The notes below the pieces were generated by a model. It searched no databases and was not told the DNA's origin. It saw only the letters and a list, made by a program, of their open reading frames with translations. From Rhodocollybia butyracea (Eukaryota > Basidiomycota > Agaricomycetes > Agaricales > Omphalotaceae): a DNA stretch of 64,000 nucleotides. Below, piece by piece: positions 1 to 58,157 of this stretch (position 1 is the first letter of the stretch; the number at the start of each line of letters is the position of its first letter). The stretch lies in assembly GCA_015501585.1 (NCBI GenBank), contig JADNRY010000018.1, forward strand, positions 124,001 through 188,000, in the 5' to 3' direction. Both the position numbers and the translations under genes were made by a program.

Positions 1-492
1 TTAGCGCCCATGACTAGAAAGTCAGACTACAAGAATCGGACAGACTGGTCGTGAGTGTTCTGTATTGTTTCCTTTTGATTTAGGAGCTCGTCTTCGGTCT
101 TCTGTAATCGATTCTATCGGATATGGTGGTGCGACCAGCAATAGTAATCGGACAGCCGGGTACCTCGGGTGTTGTCTAAGTCGAGCTGCTTCGAGCCTGA
201 AGCATTTACTTATATACTGGTTCTCTCTTTCACTACTCAAACCTTCTGCCACCTGTCTCTGTCACTCTCTGATCTCCTCCTTTTGATCGGGTGTCTACTC
301 TACACTCATCGCAGCACTCAAAGAGTCGCTGGACGAAAAAGATATACATTTGTGTTAGATTAAGTATACTTAGGTACACATGTACCGACTTTGTTCAAAA
401 AATTGAAAGACAAGCGACATCAAGAGCTGTATGGAAGGAAGAAAGTAAGTAAATTACTCGACCGAGTCTGGGATATGGAAAGACATCTTACA
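1..492. other. Intergenic, no gene recognised
   Basis: Short open frames overlap on both strands, but none shows a domain, a signal peptide or convincing splice sites. The stretch holds the 3' flank of the SET gene to its right. Confidence 0.5.
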
Positions 493-1659
493 TCATCGTA
501 TCATCCGCAATGCCTTTGAAGTTGGAGAGCATTCTCCTTCGATGATCAGGTACTCTCTTTTTGCTCTCTTCAACCAGTCTGCTGCAAGCTGCCTTTTGTT
601 CAGACGCGCGAGTCTTGCAGCACCATACCACAGAATTTGCGCATAGTGAACCACCAGCCCCTCTGCCTTTGCCATATTCAAACCATCTTGAAGCTCCAAC
701 TGGGAAAGCGGCGCTTCACTGGGATTCATTTCCAACGTTCTAATAATCCGACCTACTTGTGTCCGGCGACCGTCGCTTGCCGCGGCTTCCGCGTCCGAGA
801 CCGTGCAAGTATTACATCCGCACGCGAAGAAGTAGTCTTCCTTCAACCAAGATCGTCGCACTCTTCCTTGAGCAGCAATATTAACGTACATGATTGTGAT
901 CTCCTCTCCGGCTTCTACATCTCTGATTGCACGCAGCTCACCAGAAAATGTGCCAAAGGAGAAGTAGTAATTGGAGTTGGGAGTGCATGAGTGATTTACT
1001 CGCGAGATTGTAGGGAATATACCAACGAAGTCGTTTGCGGGATCCGGCTCTTCAGCGATGTCATGCGTGAGGAAGTTCGTTCTCAGGATTCCTAGTAACT
1101 CGTGTGTTTCGGGACCGAAAGAATTTTTGAGCGCGTAAATTGCATTTTGGGAAGCCTGTGCAAGACCATTGACTGCGCCAAGGTAGAAGTATCCATTTGT
1201 ATCTGTATAGTCGATGGGACGAGCAATGCGTTTTCGTTGTGCGTATACTGGACGTTCGTTGACCAGAAGCTCTCCTGCTCTAATTCTGCGTGTGGCTACC
1301 ATCCCAACACCTTTTCCCTCAACCTCGCTGATCTCGTATGCGGGCTGGCGAATTGGGGGGAGAACAGTATCCCAAACACTCCATTTCGCAATCTTAATGA
1401 GAGACATGATGTTGTCGACAACTACAGTGGTGTTTTTACCATGTGGAAGGTAGAGGTAACCCGGGAGCGAAGGGGCATCTCTATCACATTGGACGATTTT
1501 CGGCTGCTTCGAGAGCTCGCGAGTACGCAGACCAGCATCCGTCGATGCCATGATAGTACTTTCATTGTGACTCAGTGCAGAGCTAGCGCTTACACGAGAA
1601 GACTCTGGGTCAGCTTTGTTTCGAGACTTTTTGTCGTTGACGAGAAACCCACGCCTCAT
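493..1659 (-). CDS. SET-domain protein (SMYD/SET5-like lysine methyltransferase family)
   Basis: Single-exon frame of 388 residues starting at the ATG at 1659. The SET domain begins near residue 108 with YEISEVEGKGVGMVATRRI, the usual opening that leads into the S-adenosylmethionine site. It continues to the hallmark RVNHSCTPN around residue 220 and the GEEITIMY motif around residue 252. A cysteine cluster, FACGCNTC, follows as in the post-SET region, and the C-terminal part is helical. The family transfers methyl groups from S-adenosylmethionine to lysines of histones or other proteins, but the substrate cannot be read from the sequence. The first 100 residues are Ser/Arg-rich and weakly conserved in character, so the true start could be the internal Met near residue 37. 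The gene is not obviously linked to its neighbours. Confidence 0.88.
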   Translation of the reverse strand: MRRGFLVNDKKSRNKADPESSRVSASSALSHNESTIMASTDAGLRTRELSKQPKIVQCDRDAPSLPGYLYLPHGKNTTVVVDNIMSLIKIAKWSVWDTVLPPIRQPAYEISEVEGKGVGMVATRRIRAGELLVNERPVYAQRKRIARPIDYTDTNGYFYLGAVNGLAQASQNAIYALKNSFGPETHELLGILRTNFLTHDIAEEPDPANDFVGIFPTISRVNHSCTPNSNYYFSFGTFSGELRAIRDVEAGEEITIMYVNIAAQGRVRRSWLKEDYFFACGCNTCTVSDAEAAASDGRRTQVGRIIRTLEMNPSEAPLSQLELQDGLNMAKAEGLVVHYAQILWYGAARLARLNKRQLAADWLKRAKREYLIIEGECSPTSKALRMIR

Positions 1660-2440
1660 TCTGAAAAAATCTACGCCAAATAAGTCGAGTTGTGAAGGGT
1701 AGACAGATTCAACAGGATCGGCCTACCTCGATGTGGTTTATGGGCCCTTGGAAGGGGAAGGTAAGGTCTTTTGGAGATTTAAAAGCGCAGTCGCAGTGAG
1801 AGTAAAATAGTAGATTAAGCTCAGGCCTGAGTCAAGTCTGCGTAAGTTAAGCTTTGAATCACCACGCGGTCCACACTGCCTTAGCCTCGATTCCCGAATC
1901 TGCACGGGACAAGTCTTTGGGTCAGCGTTCAGCTCCTACCATATACCTAGTAGATCCCTCCTTCTGAGTCTACATAATCAACTTTTCCTTATCCTAGGCA
2001 AATTTGAACAGGTCCGGTCACATCATGTGACAGTGCAGATGCAAGATAAAGTCTCGACCAAGTAGTTCAGGTCGCATGATTCAAGCACAGACAGAGCGGA
2101 GTAGACGGACCAATGGGAAGCTCTTACAAATGAGTTAATAGTGCGCCTACTCTGCGCGGAATATGTGCATAATTTTCTCGAGATACTTACTTTAGGAGTA
2201 CTACTAGGATCTGTCTGGTGCCACTGGACGTTCCGGCTGATTAACTTCCTAGAGGGTGCAGCTTCCGCTTCTGATGTACAGACTCATGATAGCAAAAACT
2301 TTTGAATATATGCCATTTCTTATCCTATTACTCTAGATATGTACATAGGCTATCGGAGCCTAAGTATTCTAATTATCATTAAATAAGTATTGTTGTGGCT
2401 GCCGGTGACTCTGAACCCATGATATCTTATGAATAACGCG
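1660..2440. other. Intergenic, no gene recognised
   Basis: About 780 bases between two minus-strand genes. It should hold the promoter of the SET gene and the 3' flank of the first MCT-like transporter. I see no coding frame or repeat in it. Confidence 0.5.
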
Positions 2441-4206
2441 TTATGCTATGGCAAATAGATTCCTGTTCCGAATGAACCGTGCCACGCACAATAGCAGTGC
2501 CCCAACAAGCGACATAATGCCCTGTGTTGTTGTTATCGATTAGGAAAACCGGGACAAACTTCGAAAGTAGAATACTTACGGAAAACAGAATCAATCTTTG
2601 AAAATTTGGTTTTGTCTGGTCTTCGATAAACAAGCCTGATATCGGAGTCCCTGCAAGGGTAGCTGAGGCCATAAAGGCATAAGTACCACCGATTCTTGCT
2701 CCAACGCGTTCGATGGGAGATATTTCCACAATACAAGCCTAGTACATACAGTGAGTTTGCCATTGCTAAACCCATAAATATGAAACCTACTGGAGTGACC
2801 GAAAAGAACGGGCCAGAAGCCAGCCCGTATAGAGCGGCGAATGCTATCAAGTTTGCTTGTTCAAATGAGGTGTACCACAGGGCTAGAATTAGAATCGTCG
2901 ATATGATTGTGGATACACATAGGATGTTGAACCTGGAAGTCACAGAAATTCGGTATAATAAATTAAATTAATAGGTACCACATACCTCCCCACTTTGGGA
3001 GCGATAAGCCCAGGGCTTACACGTCCGACAATAGACGTTGCACACAGAATCGAGAGATAGTATCCATTGACACTGGAATTGGAATTAGCAACGTTAGCAC
3101 TCAATCCAACGTAGCTATATAATCAGGGTGAACAACTTTCAATGAAGAATAATGAGGCCAAGTTAATTACGCACAAGAGCGGGTTGAACACCGCGAAAAC
3201 AGAGAACCAGCATCCCAATGCAAGAAACGCGTAACATGGGTCTTTAAACGCGGCAAAATCGAATAAAGCCGAGACGGAGGGGAAAGGTTTGGACGGCCTA
3301 CGCTGCTTGATCGTTACTGCTCCAATCGCGAAACACGCGAGTGTGATGAAAGCAAAAATGCGAACTGTCCAACCTAGAAAACACAATGAAGATAAAAACT
3401 TTACGAATGAAGTACATCCACGCCTACCAAACCCAATTCTTGGTATTAGCCTTGTTACCATTATTGGGAAGACGATCCCTCCCACACTGGCACCGGAGAC
3501 GAGACACCCTACGGCATACGGCAATTTGGCCTTGAACCAGTGAGCCATAAGACCTATCAAAGGAAAGAAGCTATAGTTATATATGAGTAAGATTCGTTGT
3601 ACGCATTTCTGGCGAACCTCATTGTGGCACCGAAACTGAAGAGTACAGCTTGCGAAAGAAATTGTTGATATATTTTCTCGGGCTTTGTGATGCTCAACAT
3701 GAAGAGCGAAAAGACCGTTATAACACCGCTGAGAGGAATAAGATATCGTGGGCCTATCGCATCGAAAATAGCGCCCGCTGTTCCTGCAACTACAAGAAAA
3801 TGATTTAGAAAAACCCAAAGCGCCCCGGGTGGAATACGTTATACGTACAAATGTACAACAGAAATACCTGTACAGCTCCAATCATAGAGATCAAGGTCGC
3901 AGAGTAGTTCCTGAGGTACTGTTCTCCATAAAAATCGGCGAAAGCACCAAAAGCATTGACGAAGCTGAACAGTTATTCAATTTTTGCTCGCGGGTATAAG
4001 CAATATGCCCACCCAAACGTCCCAAGCGAGACCAATGACGCTCCGAGAACTGTCCCCCATGCATCCCAGCCTCCATCAGTCGGGCCGTACGCGTTGGACG
4101 GAGGTTGTGCCTTTCCAACTTCCACAACCAGTTTGGATTGTAGAGGATGTTCAAGTACCTTTTCAACGTCGTTGACGGTTGGATCGCTTTCTGATGACCG
4201 CATCAT
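2441..4206 (-). CDS. MFS transporter, monocarboxylate-transporter-like, copy 1
   Basis: Multi-exon gene of the major facilitator superfamily and the most diverged of three related copies here (others at 13.2-15.0 and 22.4-24.2 kb). The N-terminal cytosolic leader ends in the conserved DGGWDAWGTVLGA, the MCT-family entry to helix 1. Further exons encode VNAFGAFADFYGEQYL, a helix starting GLMAHWFKAKLPYAVG, and the central loop after IKQRRPSKPFP. The later helices and the C-terminal tail ending FIRNRNLFAIA and a TAA stop at 2441 are also present. About seven introns separate these blocks. The family moves monocarboxylates, riboflavin or related solutes across the plasma membrane, and the substrate is unknown. 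The start is set at one of two adjacent Met codons (4206/4203) by comparison with the other copies. A longer start at 4239 is possible. I saw no disabling lesion but did not verify every splice. Confidence 0.82.
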
Positions 4207-6137
4207 GGCGAACTTTGGAACGCAGAATGAAGTAGTCATCTTTGAAACTGGCTTTTAAACCAGTTTCAAACGGATCATCAACAGGCGGGAGTAAAGGAAA
4301 CTGCGAAACTGCCTTCCGTCTCTACATCGGAGCGCATTTGTCATGGAGGCCAAATTATTATGTTATCCAGCATGCAAATCTGCGCTAATTGTCGACGAAA
4401 TTACTTAAAACCTGTCGCCTAAGACTCGCTCAAGTCACAATTTTGATGAATCAACGATTATCATCGGATATTCCGGGCCGCCAAATCCAATACGCGTCCA
4501 AAGCTGAAAAACATCGAATTCATCGATAGTAACAACTCCTCAGTTACATTCGCGCCACTATAGCTCAGAATCGAGCCTCTTCGAACCCTGGCGAGTTCTC
4601 AGGGATGGAGAAAAATATTTACAGGATCATGCAGGATCGTGTTTCTCTTGGCACCCTGCCCCCTCCTGCCCCCTCCTGCCCCTTCGATCTCGTGTTTTGC
4701 CATATTGCTCATCTACGTAACAAAAAACAGGTCCTTTGGGAGCCAACATGACAGGATGGCAGGTTACCAGACGGTGCTCTACAACTCGTGTATTGAATTA
4801 TATGAGCACAGTCCTGTACAGTCGCGCTACTCGAGAATGGTCTGGAGCTGTAGTATGATCGATGCAATATCGCACTATTGCACTCATTCGCTTTCCCTAC
4901 GAGCTAGGGACTATGTAGAAGGTAATTTCTCCTAAATATCCTGAACGCAAAGAAGCCAGTTATTGGCACTGATTTTAAGATAACCCGAGTTTCTGGGCTT
5001 CTTCTAGACACTCTCAATGGTGGAAAATTACAGTGGGTACTCTCTTACTTCCACTCAACCTTCACTGAGTAAGTATCCTAGTCGTGATCCCTCTCCTCCA
5101 CCGTCCGATCCTAAAGCTTTAGAAGTCAAGAAACCATCTTTCTACTCGCTATCTCTTGCGAGCTTGTTTCAACTTTACCACGCTGCACTTTCAGTAAATC
5201 TACAAGACTAACAGCTGCACCCAAAGTCGGTTATTGGATATTAGTTTGCTTTTGGGACGTTCAAAACTCCAAACCTTCTCACATGCTACATTCAGCTCTC
5301 CTTGATAGAATCAGGCTGTCGAGTTTAGGCGATACGACTGACCACAGTGGACCTCTGAGCTTGAAAGCCACTGTTCCAAATTGTTCTGAGTCGGATACTA
5401 GACGGCGTGAGTGAGTCATGCTATCTTACTGAGCTCTGGGTGCCACAAATCTGTCCTGCAAAGTCTTCCGCTCCGAATCCGATAACGAGTCCGGTTTGAA
5501 AACGGAATGCTCGGATGGCCTAACATTTTCAATCACTCTTTACAATTTCCATTATAAATTTATGTCTCTGTTGTTCCTATACAATGATTTCCTTTCAACG
5601 ATGACTTGAAGACCGCAATTGCTTACCAAGGAGACTGGGAATGATGCATTACTAACCAATTACTAACTGGCGATGAGCCTGTTTGTATTTTCTTCTGAAT
5701 TGTGCTTCAACCAAGTATGGCGCCTAGTTCCGTCACGTCGATGACTCCGAAAGATTACTTACCTTGGTCCTTCATGCTGAGGAGCCATAAAAAATTGTGG
5801 CAGCAGCTGATAGCTATGTAAAGTGATCTTAAACACGTCGGAAAGTTGGATCCACAGGACTGCTGAGTGAATGATTTCGAAGGTGAGTTAGTGCATCAAA
5901 GGTCAAAATTGTGGGTCCCTAGTTAAAGGCGTGAAGCTCTAGATGTTCGAAAGCAGGATTGAAGATTGCGAGCAGCGAAAAGTTATATCAGCGTCATCGG
6001 CGCTTATCTTTGCCATTGTATTACGTAAATAACAAGCGTCAACACCAATTCAACGTCGTCTCGACCACCGTGACCGTCGAGCACATCCAATTTTGCCTGG
6101 TACCCATCCATCCTTCCTATCCTTTGAACTCATAATA
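4207..6137. other. Intergenic, no gene recognised
   Basis: About 1.9 kb without a supported gene. A short C-rich tandem repeat with unit CCCCCTCCTG lies at about 4658-4682. The frames at 4639-4935 and 5017-5211 lack recognisable features. The right end carries the promoter of the CFEM gene. Confidence 0.45.
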
Positions 6138-8250: not shown

Positions 8251-8480
8251 GTTTTTGGGTCAGCCCCAGCACCCCTCCAGTTCTGCATGTGGAAAGCTCG
8301 AAGTCGAAGCTCACCATCGGCTAATCTCACCCCCAGGAATATTTTTGGAGGCGTCAGTTAGCGGTACCTTGAGATTCTGTTTTCAAATTCATTTGCCGAG
8401 TCGGTGGATCATGCCGAGCATTCTCCCTCCCTCCCCAGCCCCACCCCCTCTCAAGACAATGATTTACGAAGGCGTATCAG

Positions 8481-8546
8481 GTAGCTTGTCAGATCTCGGC
8501 GTATCAGAACTTGGTCCCGAGCCGGTAAAAACCTAACCTAACCTAA
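8481..8546 (+). mobile_element. Solo 3' tail of the non-LTR retrotransposon, ending in (AACCT)n
   Basis: The stretch GTAGCTT ... GGCGTATCAG ... ACTTGGTCCC ... AGCCGG ... (AACCT)n matches the 3' end of the plus-orientation element copy at 20904-20972 with several substitutions. It is probably a severely 5'-truncated insertion. The decamer GGCGTATCAG also occurs once just before it (8471-8480). Confidence 0.6.
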
Positions 8547-8878
8547 TTCACATGAAGTAAAATAATCGACGGTGCTCTCGATTTTGTCCCACTTTCAAGG
8601 TCCCAGTTGAAGCTCTTTTGGCTCTCAGGAAAAATTCAGTGGGCCAGGCTTACTTCTGTAGCATCTTGAAATCATATACATTGTATTCAACAAATTTCGA
8701 TTTCTTTTCGTGCAAAAACTCGTGCTTGCTATATGCTAGACTTGTGTGCTCATAGAGGTCTAGTTCAGGTCGTGAAAAGTTCTCTTGCCAGTGACATTGA
8801 CACTCAGACAATGGCATCTCGGGTGAAAGATGTTGCGGGACTGTACCTTTGCTGGAACTCATCTATTGCAGGTCCTTG

Positions 8879-17718: not shown

Positions 17719-19866
17719 GGATTCCAAGTGCAGAACTCCATGGGCTACTGACCGTGCTTTATCTGACTTGTTTGAATAGTGTGCCTCAAATATTTTGTGG
17801 ACGCAATCTGCTCGGAAAGGGCCGCCCTGGAATGTTACACCAACATAAGTATATTCCAAGACTAGTGCCACTATGTTTTGAGCGAAATAAAATACCGGTG
17901 GTACTTCCAGAGCAGGCCCATGGTATGACACGACTGACTTAATAGCGTTGATAACCATGAAGTTTGTTCGGCACCAGTCATAGAAAAGGTTCATTTTTCG
18001 TTGCAACCCCTCTGGTGATAGGGCAATGAGTAGTAGGTCATCCGCTTGTTCTAAATGGGAAATGAACTGCCCGAATAGTTCGACGTCATCCTCTGTCTCA
18101 GGTATTCCGAAGTCTGAGAAATACAGGATCCATAAGAGCGGTGATAGTGTGTCTCCCGCAAGTATGCCCAATAGTGACTGGAATTCTTCTGATAGTGACC
18201 CGCCGTTCTTTACTTTGTACTTCATTCTACTGTATATCATGCGAATCCAATCAAATATTTTCCCCCCTGCGCCCTTGCGCCAAAGCTTAAACCACAGTGT
18301 GGCACGGTGAACTGATGGGAATGCATTGGTTATGTCTACGCATGCTACCCAAAGCGTCCTTTTCATTGCCTTTGCCTTCTCAATTGCCGTCCGCAGGATA
18401 AAGCAGTTGTTTGTTGTACGATACTCCTTTCTGAAGCCGTTTTGGGAGGGAGGAATTAATTTATAGTCCTCAGCCCATTCTTCCATGCGAGACATGAAGA
18501 GGAGGGTAATAAACTTCAGCATACAGCTTTCCAGCGCTATTGCACGGTAACTATTTGCATCTTTACTGTCTTTTCCCTTCTTGAGAATACCAACCAGTAT
18601 TGCCACAATCCATATGATAGGATTGTCTGTGGTGTCAACGCAGTCATTTGCAAGGCTCGCAATCATTAAGCTGTCCATATTGCGAATGTCTTTGTAATGT
18701 ACCTCATCCATGCCTACAGAGGTTTTCCCCGGGTGGCGTCGTATCAACTCGGTCTTTGCCCATTCTATATCCTCTACTATGAATGCTCGACTGAATGACT
18801 TTCTCGGTGTCAAGTCTATCGTACATTCGGGAATTAGCCGGGACAGACATTCATTGATTTCATATTGTGCAGTGTCAAACGAGGCTGGGAGGCTCTCAGG
18901 TGGGTTCATTCTTTTCACGAAAACCAAGCTCAAATCTTCTGTACTCACATCTCCCGTATCCATTGCTAGAGCGGATGAACCCGCCAGCCTTCGAAACACG
19001 GTCCAGAATAATTTGGAGTTCTTTGCAACTCGAGTAAGTTCTTCCCTATTGGCTTCGCGCAATCTTGCAATGTTGTCACGTCCGCGGTGATTTGCCAGGC
19101 GATTTTCGTATATTTGTCTAGTATCGGAACCTTCAGGTATGAGTGGTGCATCTGTTGTCACTCGGAGTTTCCCTTTCTGCTGTCCATTGCTTGTTGGATC
19201 CAGGCACTTCGGACTTATACATGGTAGATGCAGATTCTCGTAACGCTCGGACATACCAGCCACCGCAAGGTCATATGCGGCACATATATGATCATTGTGC
19301 AGACCTTCCCGAACATATGACAAGTGTGTGGGACCCCCCCTCTGTTGTATTCGAGCCACGATTGCCTTCAATAGATCGCCGTTAGCACATGTCCAGCCCA
19401 GTTTAGCATTGTGCAGAGCATTGTGTGTGAGTGCATACACTAAGAATTGTGAGTCGGAGACAACCATAATAGGTTTATCCAACGGGAAATCATAGATTGC
19501 CACCCATAGTGCAAAGCATGCAGCCCTATTTCTGGATAGTGCAGGGCCTGGGACATGCAGGGCGTGATTGTGGCTCCGTTTCCAAGAAGGATCAGGGCCT
19601 CTGTAGATCCCTGCCCCTGCGCGTACGCTCAGGGAGCCCATGCCTTCACATATTCCTGCAATGAATATACGAGTTGGTGGGATTAACTCAATAGCGCGAG
19701 ACGGGAGAAAGCCATACACCACTGCCAATGGATTACTGATTTCTTGCGTGGCTGAGTTTGATGATCGGAACTGTGCCACCTGACGAGGGTAAGACACTAT
19801 ACATGGGCTGTATTGACCCGCATTTGACCTACGGATGCGAAGTTGCAATTGACACAAGCCCAGCAT
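16717..19866 (-). CDS. Non-LTR retrotransposon RNase H-reverse transcriptase polyprotein (5'-truncated)
   Basis: Open frame of 1049 codons. A degenerate RNase H domain comes first (about residues 68-215: RAGAGIY, VVSDSQFLVYALTHN). The reverse transcriptase follows (about residues 390-690) with VACVDITNAFPSVHR for motif A, LAGDTLSPLLWILYFSDF for motif B and HLEQADDLLLIA for motif C. A C-terminal zinc knuckle CRFCKSDVEDPEHAFLLC is kept. RNase H before RT is an arrangement I recall from mushroom jockey-like elements. RNase H seems to have lost its first Asp (FIAG where YTDG is usual). The first 35 residues (19866-19761) are not element protein: they are the antisense of the inverted right arm, so the real 5' end is missing at the junction. 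No endonuclease domain is present. Confidence 0.85.
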   Translation of the reverse strand: MLGLCQLQLRIRRSNAGQYSPCIVSYPRQVAQFRSSNSATQEISNPLAVVYGFLPSRAIELIPPTRIFIAGICEGMGSLSVRAGAGIYRGPDPSWKRSHNHALHVPGPALSRNRAACFALWVAIYDFPLDKPIMVVSDSQFLVYALTHNALHNAKLGWTCANGDLLKAIVARIQQRGGPTHLSYVREGLHNDHICAAYDLAVAGMSERYENLHLPCISPKCLDPTSNGQQKGKLRVTTDAPLIPEGSDTRQIYENRLANHRGRDNIARLREANREELTRVAKNSKLFWTVFRRLAGSSALAMDTGDVSTEDLSLVFVKRMNPPESLPASFDTAQYEINECLSRLIPECTIDLTPRKSFSRAFIVEDIEWAKTELIRRHPGKTSVGMDEVHYKDIRNMDSLMIASLANDCVDTTDNPIIWIVAILVGILKKGKDSKDANSYRAIALESCMLKFITLLFMSRMEEWAEDYKLIPPSQNGFRKEYRTTNNCFILRTAIEKAKAMKRTLWVACVDITNAFPSVHRATLWFKLWRKGAGGKIFDWIRMIYSRMKYKVKNGGSLSEEFQSLLGILAGDTLSPLLWILYFSDFGIPETEDDVELFGQFISHLEQADDLLLIALSPEGLQRKMNLFYDWCRTNFMVINAIKSVVSYHGPALEVPPVFYFAQNIVALVLEYTYVGVTFQGGPFRADCVHKIFEAHYSNKSDKARSVAHGVLHLESMIGTVPPDEGKTLYMGCIDPHLTYGCEVAIDTSPALAKSLERVQIDFLRRLLGLSAKASNVALYTETGLTPILYRRMELAFRTLKYGLNRETDTYFYAAMMESIALHRQGHYAWITALLTVAEKLLGGIIPIPSIDHLVIPDNADAFHELVEEGVDKYLEAQLNATKSKTYLLHWRKEPIGSRNDSKYKTRCMRQYLSLVKNTVHRKAFTKVITGDHSLAVERLRWVDNHRIQVPHNMRLCRFCKSDVEDPEHAFLLCSYPAVESLRARLLSSVLPGTRPPSNKGEATSLLGEMISLKNGFAVTAKYFFDVLTIYDEASLFIPTGYDRNFVVP

Positions 19867-29743: not shown

Positions 29744-30105
29744 TACGGTGCCCGACCAGGCTCAGGCCGGATTTCGTTAGCTTCCATTGATTCAACTATT
29801 GTAAGTGTCATATAAGTTTCGTAAAGCTCTCGGCACTTAGTATATGTCTATTTTGGGCCATCACTTACCTTCGATGGACCGTGGCCAGTGTACTATACCA
29901 CTCCCTTTGTATCCTTTAATAGCAATAAAGCCTTCTATTTGAGACTGGGGTAGAGTAGCGAGTGCACTGTGAAAGACGGCGAAGATTTCAATACATTTAG
30001 AGGCACAGTGCCGGTGGCAAGTCACGGCCCTGCGCGCTAAATTATCTACGGTCAAAGACTTTTCGGTTTGACCGTAGATAATTTAGCGCGCAAGGCCGGC
30101 AGCAC
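29744..30105 (+). repeat. Left inverted arm with 25-bp hairpin
   Basis: Matches the right arm with a few substitutions (for example CAACTATTGTAAGTGTC here against CAACTGTTGTAACTGTC). The inner part holds a perfect 25-bp stem: 30032-30056 pairs with 30067-30091 around a 10-nt loop. A third partial copy of the stem word GACCGTAGATAATT lies just inside at 30124-30137. Confidence 0.9.
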
Positions 30106-30372
30106 AAGCTGAAAAGTCTTTTGACCGTAGATAATTGATGTCAGGTGATCCAATATAGTGCACAGCTTCTTACCTATGGCCAAAGCTAGAAATCTCTGTC
30201 GGTGATTCAATACAGTTAGTGTAGGGAATGAGCGAAGTTTTGAAATGAAATCCAACCTGGATTCAGTTGGCAACCGTAGCTGCATGTGTGTAGGTTGTGC
30301 ATTGCCTCATGCTGTTCTCTAATTATAAATTTAACTATTCTTAACCTTCACGAGGCTTTGCGCAGTAGTTTC

Positions 30373-30510
30373 GGTAGTTTCGGGTCAACGTTTGCTTTAT
30401 CCTTTGCCTTGCCTTGCCTCATTCTGTTTTCTAATTTTAGTAGTTTTGGGTCAACGTTTGCTCTATCCTTTGCCTTGCCTTGCCTCATTCTGTTTCTAAT
30501 TTTAACTCTA
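30373..30510 (+). repeat. Two tandem ~66-bp repeats
   Basis: GGGTCAACGTTTGC begins at 30382 and again at 30448. The following pyrimidine-rich text (CCTTTGCCTTGCCTTGCCTC) is repeated too. They lie between the left arm and the kinase promoter. Confidence 0.7.
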
Positions 30511-30780
30511 GCTATTCTTAAAAATCGTGAGGCCTAATGCACCCACCACGATGTAGTACACATTTAATGTCACTTACCTACTACCTTTGCCTTTGGGCTA
30601 TGGCTGTGTGGTGAGGTGATAACCGACTTAATTATTGGCTGCAGAAATGACTCGAGGTGAGAAGGGTTGAGCTGACTGAGACAAACCCCAAGCGAACTCA
30701 CAGCAGACTCGAGACTGAGCACCAAACGAGTGAGATACCGGCCACGATCTCATCACTGATGCGTCGCTTGCAGAAATGAC

Positions 30781-30787
30781 TATAAAA
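30781..30787 (+). promoter_or_regulatory. TATA box of the alpha-kinase gene
   Basis: TATAAAA 56 bases before the ATG at 30843, at a distance common in fungal promoters. Confidence 0.45.
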
Positions 30788-30842
30788 CCTCTATCCAAAT
30801 TGCACATCGTCTGTACTTTTCACTCTTTACTTGTTCTTATTT

Positions 30843-33213
30843 ATGCCTTTCTGCCCTACTTGCTCCCAGGAATACACAGGTCTTGCTGTAAGCACAAACT
30901 GTGCAAAGTGCTGTGCGATATTGGCAAATCCAAAGATTACTGACGTTGAGAGAAAGAAAATTTTGGTATGTTATATCCTTTGACTCTGTTTGATGTACTC
31001 ACTTCTTTGAAGAACACCCCCGCTTGTACTCATTGTAGTGCATATTATGCGATGTTGAGCCAAGACCTATGTGGGCCCTGCGCCAAGAGCACTGCGGTGA
31101 GCATGCAGTCTGACGGTGGTGAGTTCCAATTCCACGACGACACCCATAATATGATATTTATTTCTATAATGCTTCGATAGCCACATCTCCTTCAACGATT
31201 ACATCTACAGCTACGGTAATGCATCGTGCCAGGGCTTGGACCAGCGCGGCATCCAATCAGCGTCTGAACCTGAAAGCAAAGCAGAATAACGCTCTCAGCA
31301 AGGCTACTGAAATGATACAGGAAAAATCTAGTATGCGTAAACTCGGAAAGGCACAAGTACTGAAAGTCGAAATGTCTCTCTCATTCTCATTTCCTGACAA
31401 CAAGGAAGTCAAGGTATACCTCGAGTACCTATGCATACTGTTTTACTCACATAGATTAGGCAAATTTGCGTCCATACAGCAACATATTTGCGTCCACTTT
31501 AACAGTTACAGTGGTTTTCGATAAGTTGATTGAAGCCCTCAAAACCTCGTTCAATACCCATGCTCAATGCCAGAGCTTGCTACAAAATCATGCGAAGGGT
31601 AAATTTCGAAATGCGCATATTGATTGGGCTATGTATGTAGGCATTAACCTACACTGCTTTGCTACTGACGTACTTGCAGATCGAGTTTGACTTTCAACTC
31701 TTGTTCTGGAGCACACAAGAACTTGATTCCTATTAATGAGTTGAAGTGGGAGGAAAGCATCGAATCGCTATTCATGAGCCTGGAACACAAGGGAAGACTC
31801 TCGAAAGCAGATGTTGCGGAACGTAAATTTGCGCTGGAATGCTCTGTTCCTGTTATCCAACACGTAAGTATTAGCATAATTTTCATATATGCGATAAGTC
31901 ACTTAACCTACAAGCAGGAGGAGATACTTGACGAAGATGATACCAGTGATGATGACCCAGTACTTGTCTCAAGGGTAGCCTCACCGAGAACAGGTCAAAA
32001 GCGCAAATCCAAGATCAATGCTGGAAGTATGTACTTTCATTTTTTTGTCACATTTTGTTTGATATATTCTTGTTTTAGGTTCTCGTGCAGTAAAGCGTAA
32101 GACTTCCAGACCCAGTACATATTCAAGCTCGTGGAACAGGCAGGTCAGCACAGATCGTGTAATCCATGAGTTCGATCAACATACATTCAAGAAGACGACT
32201 TGTATTGCATCTGACGATGGTAATACCCGGATGGTACAGGAACCGGGGGAGTATACAATTGAAGTTGTGAAAAATTGGCGTCGTTACTCAAAAGATGGTG
32301 TTCCTAAAGGTGGTTATTTGGCAAAAGGATTTTATAAAACTGCAGTTTTGGTACGTACCGCACACATCTTTGCCTTATCTTTTCGTTTAATTTTTATGTT
32401 TGACTTCCAGGGGCGATACGAGAATAAGAACGTGGCAGTACTCCAGCTAATCTATGAGGGCTCCACAAGCAACTCGAACCGTGAATCCCTTCTGAATGAA
32501 TTCGAGCTTTTGATTCAAGCAGAAGGCTTTGCAAAAAGCTTCACGAAGCGAGCGAAAGATGCTGAATTGACAGTACCTGGTGTGTATAACAATGAATAGC
32601 ATGGTGTAAAAATTAATTGCCACTATATAGGTCTGAAGTACAATGTCGAAGGTGCATTTATCGGTACAGTAACATCCTATCTTTCTCCTGGTCCCCTACC
32701 ATTGGAGGATACCATACTGGATGATGAGCGCAGCCTTGTTCATGATACCTTTCTCGTCGTACCTCTGCTTCAAACCAAAGGGCTTTACAAGGAACGGAAA
32801 TTTTCTGGAAACAGTGAAACTGGGTGTAATGGAGATTTCGCAGGAAGGGTGGTTGATGCATTTGCACACCACATTGTGGAGCACACAAATGGTGAATGTA
32901 TGCTTGCTGATATTCAAGGTAGTTTTTAAATACTCGATGCGCTATCATTGCTAACGTTTCAATTTTTCAAGGCATTGTTGGCCCAGACAAGAAAATCACA
33001 CTCTTTGATCCCCAGGCTCACACGTAGGATGTGCTGTTCAAATCTGATTAAAACACTGACTTAGGTTTCCCCAGGAAAACCCAAACCTCTGGCGAATGGG
33101 ACAGCGGCATCTCTGAAATTCATAAATTCATCGAAGAACATAAGTGCAATGAATTCTGCAAACAGATGAACCTTCGAGATCTATCGAAACCATTTCCTCT
33201 CCGACCTTGGTAA
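30843..33213 (+). CDS. Zinc-finger / alpha-kinase (atypical protein kinase)
   Basis: Eleven exons (30843-30965, 31013-31118, 31181-31413, 31460-31632, 31680-31863, 31918-32026, 32079-32350, 32411-32579, 32631-32918, 32972-33023, 33075-33213) join to 616 codons, 615 residues. The N-terminus has two CxxC pairs (C4/C7, C20/C23) and two more (C46/C49, C61/C64), resembling zinc ribbons. A long Ser/Lys-rich middle follows. The C-terminal third (about 375-610) has the alpha-kinase pattern: GGYLAKGFYKTAVL, YNVEGAFIGTVTSYL, HTNGECMLADIQGIVGP, ITLFDPQAHT and SGEWDSG. The family phosphorylates Ser/Thr in helical substrates. At the expected ATP-binding lysine I read VAVLQL, with Leu where mushroom relatives, from memory, show Lys, so activity is uncertain. 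It is convergent with the integrase-core gene 206 bp away. Confidence 0.87.
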
Positions 33214-33419
33214 AATACCTTCTGCAGCTTCACATACTACACTCATTTAGCATACACTCTGACCAACTCTCCCCGCATTCGTTACTAGCTTTTGATACCC
33301 ACTTACTAATTAGTTTTCTCGTTTTTTCTTTGTTCTTTTACATATTGAATTAGCGTCTCAATGAATTAGTTACATGTGTGGCAACATAGCCTGAAATACG
33401 TCCCATACATTAGACATTG

Positions 33420-35044
33420 TTAGTTTCGGGGCCCCAGCTTGTCCTCCAATATACCCCTCGCCTTTGCCGCATACTCAACAGACACAAAGCGGATCAAATC
33501 TTCACCTCCAATCTCCTCCATGAGCTTTTCTATGACTTGTGAGTCAACAGGAACTAATCCGTTCTTACCACCATATTTTTCATAAAGCGAAAAGGCAATA
33601 TTTGATGCTACACCACTTGGAAGGAATTTTTGAGTATCCTTACGTGTACGGTGGTTGTTGAATGTTTCTCGCAAGTTGTCCAACTCTCCTTGTATCAATG
33701 TCGGCCACAGCCATTGCACAAGATCACTAATAATGTTCAGATACAGTATCAAAAATATGAATAGCAGATAGACGTACTGATGTGTTTGATTCGCGGAGTT
33801 ATAGATACCCGCTCCAGCTTCCCAGAATATCTTTACATTGTCTCCCCAGTGCAAACGCAGTCTTAGCCACCCACGTTCAATGGTAATATTATGTATACTC
33901 TGCATGAATCGATGCGCAGGAAGCTCTTCAATAGGTAGATCACTTGCAAACATCTCTCTACAGACCATGTTCGTCAGCACTATATTAATCAATTAATCTG
34001 TTACATTTTTAGACCTGAGTGCATTTGCAAATCCGTACACCATGACTAACTCTGACCCACAGTCGGTGGTCATCTGTACTGGAATACCTATAAGTTTGAT
34101 CTTAAGCAACAGTATCAGCAAGAACATTCACCAAAACAAACCTCCATATTCATGTACAAGTTTGAGGAAGAGATAGGCGATGGCATCTTTGAGGCGGTTG
34201 TTAGGAACTACCCAGAGGCCAAGCCATTTGCCTGACCATACATCTCGGATGCCCCAGATTGGGAATCCAATTGCACTTAATTTATCATGGCCATCACCAC
34301 TCCATTCGTGGTGGGGTCCAAGGCACACAAGAACTGTGCGATGAATCTTCTTCGATGTTGGCTCACGATTGGTAAAACCATCCGGGTCCTGTTCTCGCAT
34401 TATATTCTCAATATATTCCCTAGAGAATGAAGTGTTTCAACAGCTCGAAAGAAGAAAAATGTGTCAGAAAGGCACTAGACCTTGTGAGATGTACACCTGT
34501 TTCCAAAGCAATGACTTCCTTCACTGTCCGTGGGCCACGTTTTCCATTCGGGTCTTTGGCCATTTCATTGAATACTAGTTGTCGTTTATTGAGCTCAGGC
34601 ATTGCTGCTGTAGTCACTCGGCTCCCTTGGATTCCCCAATACTTCTTACGCCGTGTGACAGATGCTGCACTGTAAAACAATTTTGTCAAGACCAAATTGC
34701 AATAAACAAGTGTATCATAGTACTGGCCTTAGCTTAATACCATGTTCAGCTTCCAATAACTGAGAAATGGTGTCCTTATTGGTAATGTTCCGACGATGGT
34801 ATTCAAGTAGAGCTTGATGAACGTTAGGGTCGTCATAATCGGCTAGTAAAGAGCTGTAGTAAGTGTGTACTCCTAGCGGTGACAATAAACACATACGGCG
34901 ATTTTTGTACTGGTTTATTCCTTTCCAATTATGATTGTTGTTAGTCTTTTTGCTTGTGGAGGGTGCCTCCTCTTCTGGGTCTGTCGTATAACCTTGGTCG
35001 GAGTCGAGTAGCTCAGAAGCAATCTCATCTTCCGAGTTAGGCAT
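33420..35044 (-). CDS. DDE integrase-core domain protein (basidiomycete family, putative transposase)
   Basis: Six exons (35044-34728, 34669-34481, 34419-34142, 34087-34015, 33957-33778, 33726-33420) join to 448 codons, 447 residues. The first intron appears to be GC-AG. All others are GT-AG. An acidic N-terminus precedes a helix-turn-helix-like part (HGIKL joined to SAASVTRRKKYWG). The retroviral-integrase-like core carries GPHHEWSGDGHDKL (Asp 211), IPVQMTTDCGSEL (Asp 270) and HNITIERGWLRLR (Glu 313), a likely D-58-D-42-E triad. The family tail continues with NVKIFWEAG and LVQWLWPTLIQGELD. Such proteins are numerous in mushroom genomes and are generally called integrase-core proteins. Their mobility is largely untested. 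The intact frame and the flanking inverted arms suggest it may move this unit. Confidence 0.87.
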
Positions 35045-35320
35045 CGTGGATGAGTAACTGAGGGAATGTGCATCTTCCCTCTTTTCAATGCTTCCTTTTA
35101 TTGCCAAGTTCTACAGCTTTCACATGTCTAACGGGTGTTTCCAGCATGTTGAGCATGTGTCTAGACCTCCCATAAACCTCCAGTTCAGCTCACACCAGGT
35201 ATATGGCTCGATATATGATAAGCCAGTTTAAATTTGTACTCTAAGCTTGAGTAATAATTCCCTAGTTTGTCTCTAAGTTCCTGCGGGGAAGTAGTCTCGC
35301 TCACACACATGGAGTAGCCA

Positions 35321-35785
35321 GTGCCGCCGGCCCTGCGCGCTAAATTATCTACGGTCAAACCGAAAAGTCTTTGACCGTAGATAATTTAGCGCGCAGGGCC
35401 GTGACTTGCCACCGGCACTGTGCCTCTAAATGTATTGAAATCTTCGCCGTCTTTCACAGTGCACTCGCTACTCTACCCCAGTCTCAAATAGAAGGCTTTA
35501 TTGCTATTAAAGGATACAAAGGGAGTGGTATAGTACACTGGCCACGGTCCATCGAAGGTAAGTGATGGCCCAAAATAGACATATACTAAGTGCCGAGAGC
35601 TTTACGAAACTTATATGACAGTTACAACAGTTGAATCAATGGAAGCTAACGAAATCCGGCCTGAGCCTGGTCGGGCACCGTACATATACTAAGTGCCGAG
35701 AGCTTTACGAAACTTATATGACAGTTACAACAGTTGAATCAATGGAAGCTAACGAAATCCGGCCTGAGCCTGGTCGGGCACCGTA
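35321..35785 (-). repeat. Right inverted arm with hairpin and 103-bp tandem duplication
   Basis: Inverted partner of the left arm. The hairpin stem is 35335-35359 with 35370-35394. The outer 103 bases are present twice in tandem (35580-35682 and 35683-35785), with no difference that I can see. Each copy ends ...GGGCACCG followed by TA. Confidence 0.9.
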
Positions 35786-57671: not shown

Positions 57672-58157
57672 TGGGTTTGGGGGGCTGAACGATAGCTTAA
57701 CTTCAGAACCATTATTGTCTTACCTACTTGTTTAAACTACACCGGCCTTTGGAAATGCTCACTATTCCATTTCAACCTGAGAAACGAACTGTGCGTAGGA
57801 AATCGGAAGAGATCCGGCCCGAAAGAGCGGCCGTGACCTGGCGAATTTTCAGCTTTGTCAGTTACTCCTTGTACTACAACCACCACCCTTTTGCGTTTAC
57901 TTCTACACTTTCCACTTGTTTGAAGTAAATCGTCCACGATTTCGCCCTTTTACCCCCCAATTATACCTTCGCGTATCTTCTGTCCCTGCAGAGGATTCAT
58001 GCTTCGGCCTCCAATCGGTATATCCAGACATAAGAGATTATTTCAGACCAAGTCGCCCAGTTTTGTGAGCCTTTTACCATACTTATTCTCGGCACGGCTT
58101 TTCTTAACCACATTTTCTTTAAAAAATAGCGTTAAAACCTAAAATTTTCTGCCCAGT
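57672..58157. other. Promoter region of eIF5
   Basis: Holds the 3' flank of the DUF427 gene, pyrimidine-rich stretches and the 5' leader of eIF5. No separate gene supported. Confidence 0.45.

Follow-up and report, generated by a model that had tools for sequence, protein, structure and literature searches.

A stretch of 64,000 nucleotides from the genome of the mushroom Rhodocollybia butyracea (contig C472:124001-188000, in an assembly of 95.6 Mb and 1,381 contigs; hereafter the window) contains a 6-kb unit at positions 29744-35785, in which an alpha-kinase gene and an integrase-core gene are enclosed by inverted arms. This unit is most probably an IS3EU-type DNA transposon with two genes, in which the kinase has been retained as a second core gene. 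That the unit is mobile is shown by recurrent bracketed copies and by target duplications. A preliminary description of the window had proposed a single mobile unit with the integrase-core protein as the mover and the kinase carried along, and this proposal was borne out, as the same pair is bracketed at two other places, on contigs C823 and C525, and the two genes co-occur more often than expected. Membership in IS3EU is very likely, judging from termini, duplication, terminal inverted repeats (TIRs) and gene pair.

Bracketed copies, target duplications and termini

The next-best places in the genome for the alpha-kinase and for the integrase-core protein coincide, on C823 and C525, and the two genes are convergent at each of them. 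Both copies (5,948 and 5,673 bp, respectively) are bracketed by inverted ends starting with TACGGTT. Their arms have diverged from those of the window copy, and the flanks are unrelated between copies. On C3, a nest of element ends was found together with an internally deleted derivative, which retains kinase codons 1-41 at 100% identity and a remnant of the transposase gene, bracketed by arm sequence. The preliminary description had raised the question whether the arm sequence brackets the same genes elsewhere; within this genome, it encloses a fragment of this kinase gene at C3, and diverged arms bracket the pair at C823 and C525. A second family is represented on C180, where the pair lies in divergent order between other TA..TA ends (TAGCG..CGCTA); the short copy of C180 has TACAG at its right end.

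The C823-type end (about 49 bp) also brackets ten copies of about 1.15-1.18 kb and one copy of 5.8 kb, all lacking both genes. The 5.8-kb copy (C694:255066-260900; locus extract 167-6001) showed no match to either gene. Arms without the genes, named in the preliminary description as an argument against a mobile unit, were in part observed, in the form of these gene-less short copies; short copies of this sort are, however, typical of non-autonomous derivatives. Full elements would have mobilised them in trans.

At both C823 (AACGAG) and C525 (ACTGCC), the sequences flanking the element agree over exactly 6 bp. Nine of the ten copies of about 1.17 kb were tested (C581 is outside this set), and an exact 6-bp duplication was found in eight of them, seven by script and one, C794 (TCCGAG), by eye. 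C580 and C559 are probably alleles of one insertion, so that seven of eight short-copy insertions carry the duplication. The C824 copy showed no duplication with the left end used, and a further end is located about 0.2 kb away, at 19768. Flanks match over 5 bases at C859 and at the C180 short copy, over 6 bases with one mismatch at the 5.8-kb copy on C694 and over 7 bases (by eye) at the two-gene copy on C180; no duplication was found at the outer ends of C3. The TA reported earlier at both outer edges of the window element is present, these edges reading TACGG..CCGTA. The 6-bp duplication lies outside this TA, however, and the TA therefore belongs to the element; TA as the target duplication, as in Tc1/mariner or other TA-duplicating transposons, could be ruled out.

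TACGG..CCGTA termini were likewise found in C525, C823, C859 and C3, and the short copies were read at both ends. The inverted terminal repeats measure 367 nt in the window, 75 in C823 and 52+22 in C180, and in C525 they form several blocks over about 335 bp; all four exceed 30 bp. In a 2025 study of fungal transposons that carry TET/JBP genes (PMC12730594), the IS3EU families of rusts are described as having TAYGG..CCRTA termini, target duplications of 6 bp and TIRs longer than 30 bp, and every TET-bearing IS3EU family is stated to have a TET gene between oppositely oriented transposase and alpha-kinase genes. The family of the window element shares with those families, as far as the published description goes, the termini, the TIR of more than 30 bp, the 6-bp duplication and the opposed transposase and alpha-kinase genes, which are convergent in the window, C823 and C525; in the C180 family the pair is divergent. 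It differs in its host, a mushroom, the published families being chiefly from rusts, and in that no TET/JBP gene lies between the two genes; in the window these are separated by 206 bp, and such a gene marks the TET-bearing subset of IS3EU only. IS3EU/GingerRoot elements in general (PMC10045372) have in common with the present element TA..TA termini, 6-bp duplications and an integrase-like DDD/E transposase, and the word kinase is absent from the main text of that paper. The Styx element of Zymoseptoria carries several genes per element, and its DDD/E transposase is said to be of common origin with that of IS3EU (PMC10853768). Besides two sentences in PMC12730594, no paper linking an alpha-kinase gene to a transposon was found among the matches listed, partly available as these sources were. 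The context of the two genes had been called unexplained, which no longer holds: IS3EU elements with an alpha-kinase gene are already in print (PMC12730594), and the window element adds a TET-less mushroom case.

The integrase-core and alpha-kinase genes

A public R. butyracea protein, P0001, maps exactly onto the integrase-core gene of the window, and another, P0004, maps exactly onto the C823 copy. The D-D-E residues are present in the window transposase (D187, D246 and E289 in P0001 numbering), and an integrase-like fold with D-D-E is supported for the family. The integrase-core lineage to which it belongs very probably represents the IS3EU transposases. Such a transposase would bind the arms, excise the element and insert it at target cuts staggered by 6 bp.

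The predicted kinase consists of a CxxC-rich N-terminus, a middle region and a C-terminal alpha-kinase domain (residues 392-595). Its match to PF02816 (E 5.8e-19) reached 69.3 bits, compared with a Pfam cut-off of 21.3, and the catalytic Asp and the zinc residues of this family align in the window kinase. A search with the whole protein gave a single match (best 7,993 candidates), and residues 330-605 gave 19 matches; the window kinase itself was absent from the database proteins that these searches found. From MHCK-A, eEF2K and the TRP-channel alpha-kinases the element kinase differs by its N-terminal CxxC region, its middle domain and its G.WD.G loop. The positions of both genes and of the terminal structures are listed in Table 1.

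Table 1. Coordinates of the genes and terminal structures of the element in the window
Feature	Position	Strand	Remarks
Left terminal inverted repeat	29744..30110	+	Begins TACGGTGCCCGACCAGG; 367 nt, 98% complementary to 35316-35682; further copies in the genome
Stem-loop palindrome, 32+10+32 nt	30025..30098		Inner end of left arm; core dispersed elsewhere in the genome
Alpha-kinase gene	30843..33213	+	11 exons (splice model of this analysis), 612 aa, without premature stop
Alpha-kinase exons 1-6 (model)	30843-30965, 31013-31118, 31181-31424, 31480-31632, 31680-31863, 31918-32026	+	
Alpha-kinase exons 7-11 (model)	32079-32350, 32411-32579, 32631-32918, 32972-33023, 33075-33213	+	
Transposase gene	33420..35044	-	rva_4 integrase core PF24764, E 3e-9; 7 exons
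Transposase introns	34896-34843, 34740-34665, 34480-34420, 34141-34088, 34014-33958, 33777-33727	-	Seven-exon structure implied by P0001
Right terminal inverted repeat	35316..35682	-	367 nt, 98% complementary to left arm
Stem-loop palindrome, same as in left arm	35328..35401		In right arm
Tandem duplicate of right terminal ~103 bp	35682..35785	-	Perfect; outer element end ..CCGTA

Linkage of the two genes and the role of the kinase

Eight of the 14 alpha-kinase places in the genome, about half, have an integrase-core place no more than 5 kb away, compared with 0.10 expected (binomial p 2e-14); the preliminary description had proposed testing for such an excess over chance. Each place was counted once, the C3 kinase fragment was excluded, and counts for large families are lower bounds. 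The excess was also seen without the window (7/13, p 2e-12), without the window and the C850 allele (5/11, p 9e-9), and when in addition the C583 tandem was counted once (4/10, p 6e-7).

Among the matches listed (120 of 208 for the integrase-core protein), six of the 19 kinase relatives share both species and an equally long contig with an integrase-core relative, and 13 share no such combination. The six pairings are R. butyracea C525 itself and those of L. edodes, T. constricta, H. aurantiaca, C. squamosus and C. lactineus, the last five species presumably belonging to Agaricales, Boletales and Polyporales. The T. constricta proteins have neighbouring locus tags (D9615_002422/002423), and the H. 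aurantiaca pair lies on a contig of 7,881 bases. Among the large contigs, neighbouring tags were found only in Tricholomella, and the Lentinula, Cerioporus and Cubamyces pairs could be far apart.

Transposase and kinase protein distances correlate over eight pairs (r 0.88; 5e-5 of shuffles were as high), a test in which shared species history confounds linkage, in which three of the eight rows come from R. butyracea and in which the C823 kinase row is our own splice model with doubtful stretches. In the comparison of the window with C823, silent sites are close to saturation (proportion of synonymous differences, pS, 0.76-0.79), and the corresponding nonsynonymous proportion (pN) is 0.205 for the transposase and 0.215 for one kinase exon. 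Amino-acid change is well below silent change in both genes, unevenly so in the kinase.

The kinase is likely to be a core part of the element and not cargo, and the recurrence of the pair in further copies, and apparently in other mushroom species, makes it probable that the kinase is a working part. Most likely it would phosphorylate the transposase or a host nuclear protein, allowing or timing transposition.

Several observations weigh against a two-gene IS3EU transposon with the kinase as a core gene. The preliminary description had called the two genes of the window intact, convergent and multi-exon. They are convergent and multi-exon, and the kinase shows no premature stop; the reading frame of the transposase, however, terminates at 33420, leaving out of frame the final ~20 codons that relatives conserve. 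No matching duplication flanks the window copy either (left AGCGCA, right AACGCG), and given both features this copy may be dead. In the kinase, the ATP-binding lysine was not placed by sequence, the alignments spanning the C-lobe only, and the glycine-rich loop of canonical alpha-kinases is replaced by the G.WD.G form. C525 is decaying in both genes, with a stop in the kinase and N replacing the first catalytic D. Gene orientation differs between the families, and for the tandem pairs of C583 and its allele C850 a search for TA[CT]GG ends detected none that could be recognised. Comparison with empty sites, from which a clean TA duplication had been expected, yielded a contiguous element-free place for two of six joined flank pairs (C538 for C3, 93%; C798 for C859, 84%), while the duplication proved to be 6 bp and not TA. 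The junctions at C538 and C798 have a few bases extra or missing, and alleles elsewhere in the assembly are 98.5-99.7% identical; because of the lower identity and the junction differences, these places may be paralogous and not alleles, and they lend weak support to movement. No kinase was found within 5 kb of 59 of the 66 integrase-core places, and the wider Pfam family therefore does not need a kinase. Finally, a second kinase exon of C823 (6761-6472) is less constrained (pN 0.437, pS 0.702).

With regard to the target of the kinase, there is an appreciable chance, though short of even, that it is directed at the host and phosphorylates a silencing, chromatin or growth component, keeping the element active, rather than the transposase; the domain match is, however, no better than common arrangements give. 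Only tentatively can a stricter form of the two-gene reading be put forward, in which basidiomycete IS3EU transposase and alpha-kinase form an obligate pair and phosphorylation of the transposase, or of one host factor, by the kinase would permit transposition or set its timing. If so, a good part of the annotated alpha-kinase expansions of mushrooms and rusts would be transposon genes, and the element would represent a phosphorylation-gated eukaryotic cut-and-paste system.

It is possible, but rather doubtful, that the IS3EU element is real and the kinase is passive cargo caught once, like the TET/JBP genes of other fungal transposons. This would agree with the many kinase-less integrase-core places, with the one loosely constrained kinase exon and with the fact that host-beneficial cargo can look conserved; PMC12730594 also reports that transposon-borne TET/JBP genes pass between superfamilies. 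Against cargo stand the occurrence of both proteins on equally long contigs in five other species (among the matches listed), the pair reported for rust fungi in PMC12730594, the joint rise of the protein distances, which comes partly from species relatedness, and nonsynonymous change below synonymous change in both genes. A domesticated locus, in which a former transposon pair is kept for a host function and the arms are remnants, is improbable. The tandem pairs of C583 and C850 without recognisable ends would fit it, as would the left window junction, which is also present in a second contig and hence old enough for both haplotypes; the 98% complementary arms, unrelated flanks, exact duplications and near-identical ends of the short copies, however, point to fairly recent movement of the family. 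That two unrelated host genes just happen to be flanked by copies of a dispersed repeat is scarcely conceivable, even though fragments of the arms and the inner palindrome are also found on their own. This reading is refuted by the co-occurrence counts, with or without the window, and by the recurrence of the pair between matched ends (C823 and C525) and between ends of another kind (C180).

The reading of the unit as a two-gene IS3EU transposon supplies a context for two protein families of many mushroom genomes, mostly filed as hypothetical proteins. It raises the sharp question why a kinase gene should be retained by a cut-and-paste transposon in several mushrooms and, as reported, also in rusts. 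The complete C823 copy with its clean 6-bp duplication and the short copies with their near-identical ends make this question testable.

Window-copy junctions and further copies

The inverted arms of the preliminary description are real, but their length is 367 nt and not 362 bp, and the right end is doubled in tandem. Chance is excluded as the source of arms of this length and complementarity. The terminal 103 bp of the right arm are repeated perfectly (35579-35681 and 35682-35784), and this extra copy of the terminus moves the element end out to 35785. A comparable tandem duplication of the terminal ~103 bp was observed at a left end on C3 (C3 locus extract 5637-5741). The core of the palindrome found in both arms, GCGCTAAATTATCTACGGTCAAAGACTTTTCG, occurs in less perfect form on seven other contigs (C1157, C724, C639, C169, C656, C549 and C1050), and the dispersed palindrome may be a very small fold-back element.

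C1084 aligns with the window copy at 99.7% over its left flank and left arm and ends within the arm; the left junction is therefore present twice in the assembly. C565 matches the right flank at 99.6% from exactly 35786 on, and its other side is different DNA (breakpoint at C565 extract 5447/5448). A 500-bp piece of this differing DNA was found in C565 only. Five pieces from more distant parts of C565 were examined as well: for three, a second copy lies in C102 or C405, and those at 58,000 and 66,200 showed no second copy beyond short or same-contig repeat matches. As judged from these alignments, the right element end (35785/35786) is a structural breakpoint between haplotypes, or possibly an assembly error. 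Such a breakpoint fits aberrant transposition or recombination between copies, which would explain the absent duplication. The window copy is probably rearranged, as it lacks a target duplication, its right end is doubled and its right junction falls on a haplotype breakpoint.

The C583 and C850 alleles hold tandem kinase/integrase-core pairs in divergent order, and C850 has an extra stretch between identical direct repeats of 167 nt. Short partial second integrase-core similarities could be observed between the kinase and the near end in C525 (extract ~2680-3200) and C823 (extract ~8340-8650), covering different parts of the protein. Two of the 59 kinase-less integrase-core places, C716 and C436, were inspected for ends. 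At C716, the top Pfam-scoring integrase-core place, no inverted pair of at least 20 nt was found around the gene within 8 kb. C436 showed one weak inverted pair (20 nt, 80%, not TA..TA), which is probably due to chance. Within about 4 kb of the C716 integrase-core gene (C716:515000-523000, extract 683-1229) lies a reading frame with, by eye, a possible resemblance to a TET/JBP-type dioxygenase. A further family of ends (TACGGTAGGCGGG in C994) brackets an integrase-core gene fragment in C994 (extract 4148-6106) and C739 (extract 3841-5795).
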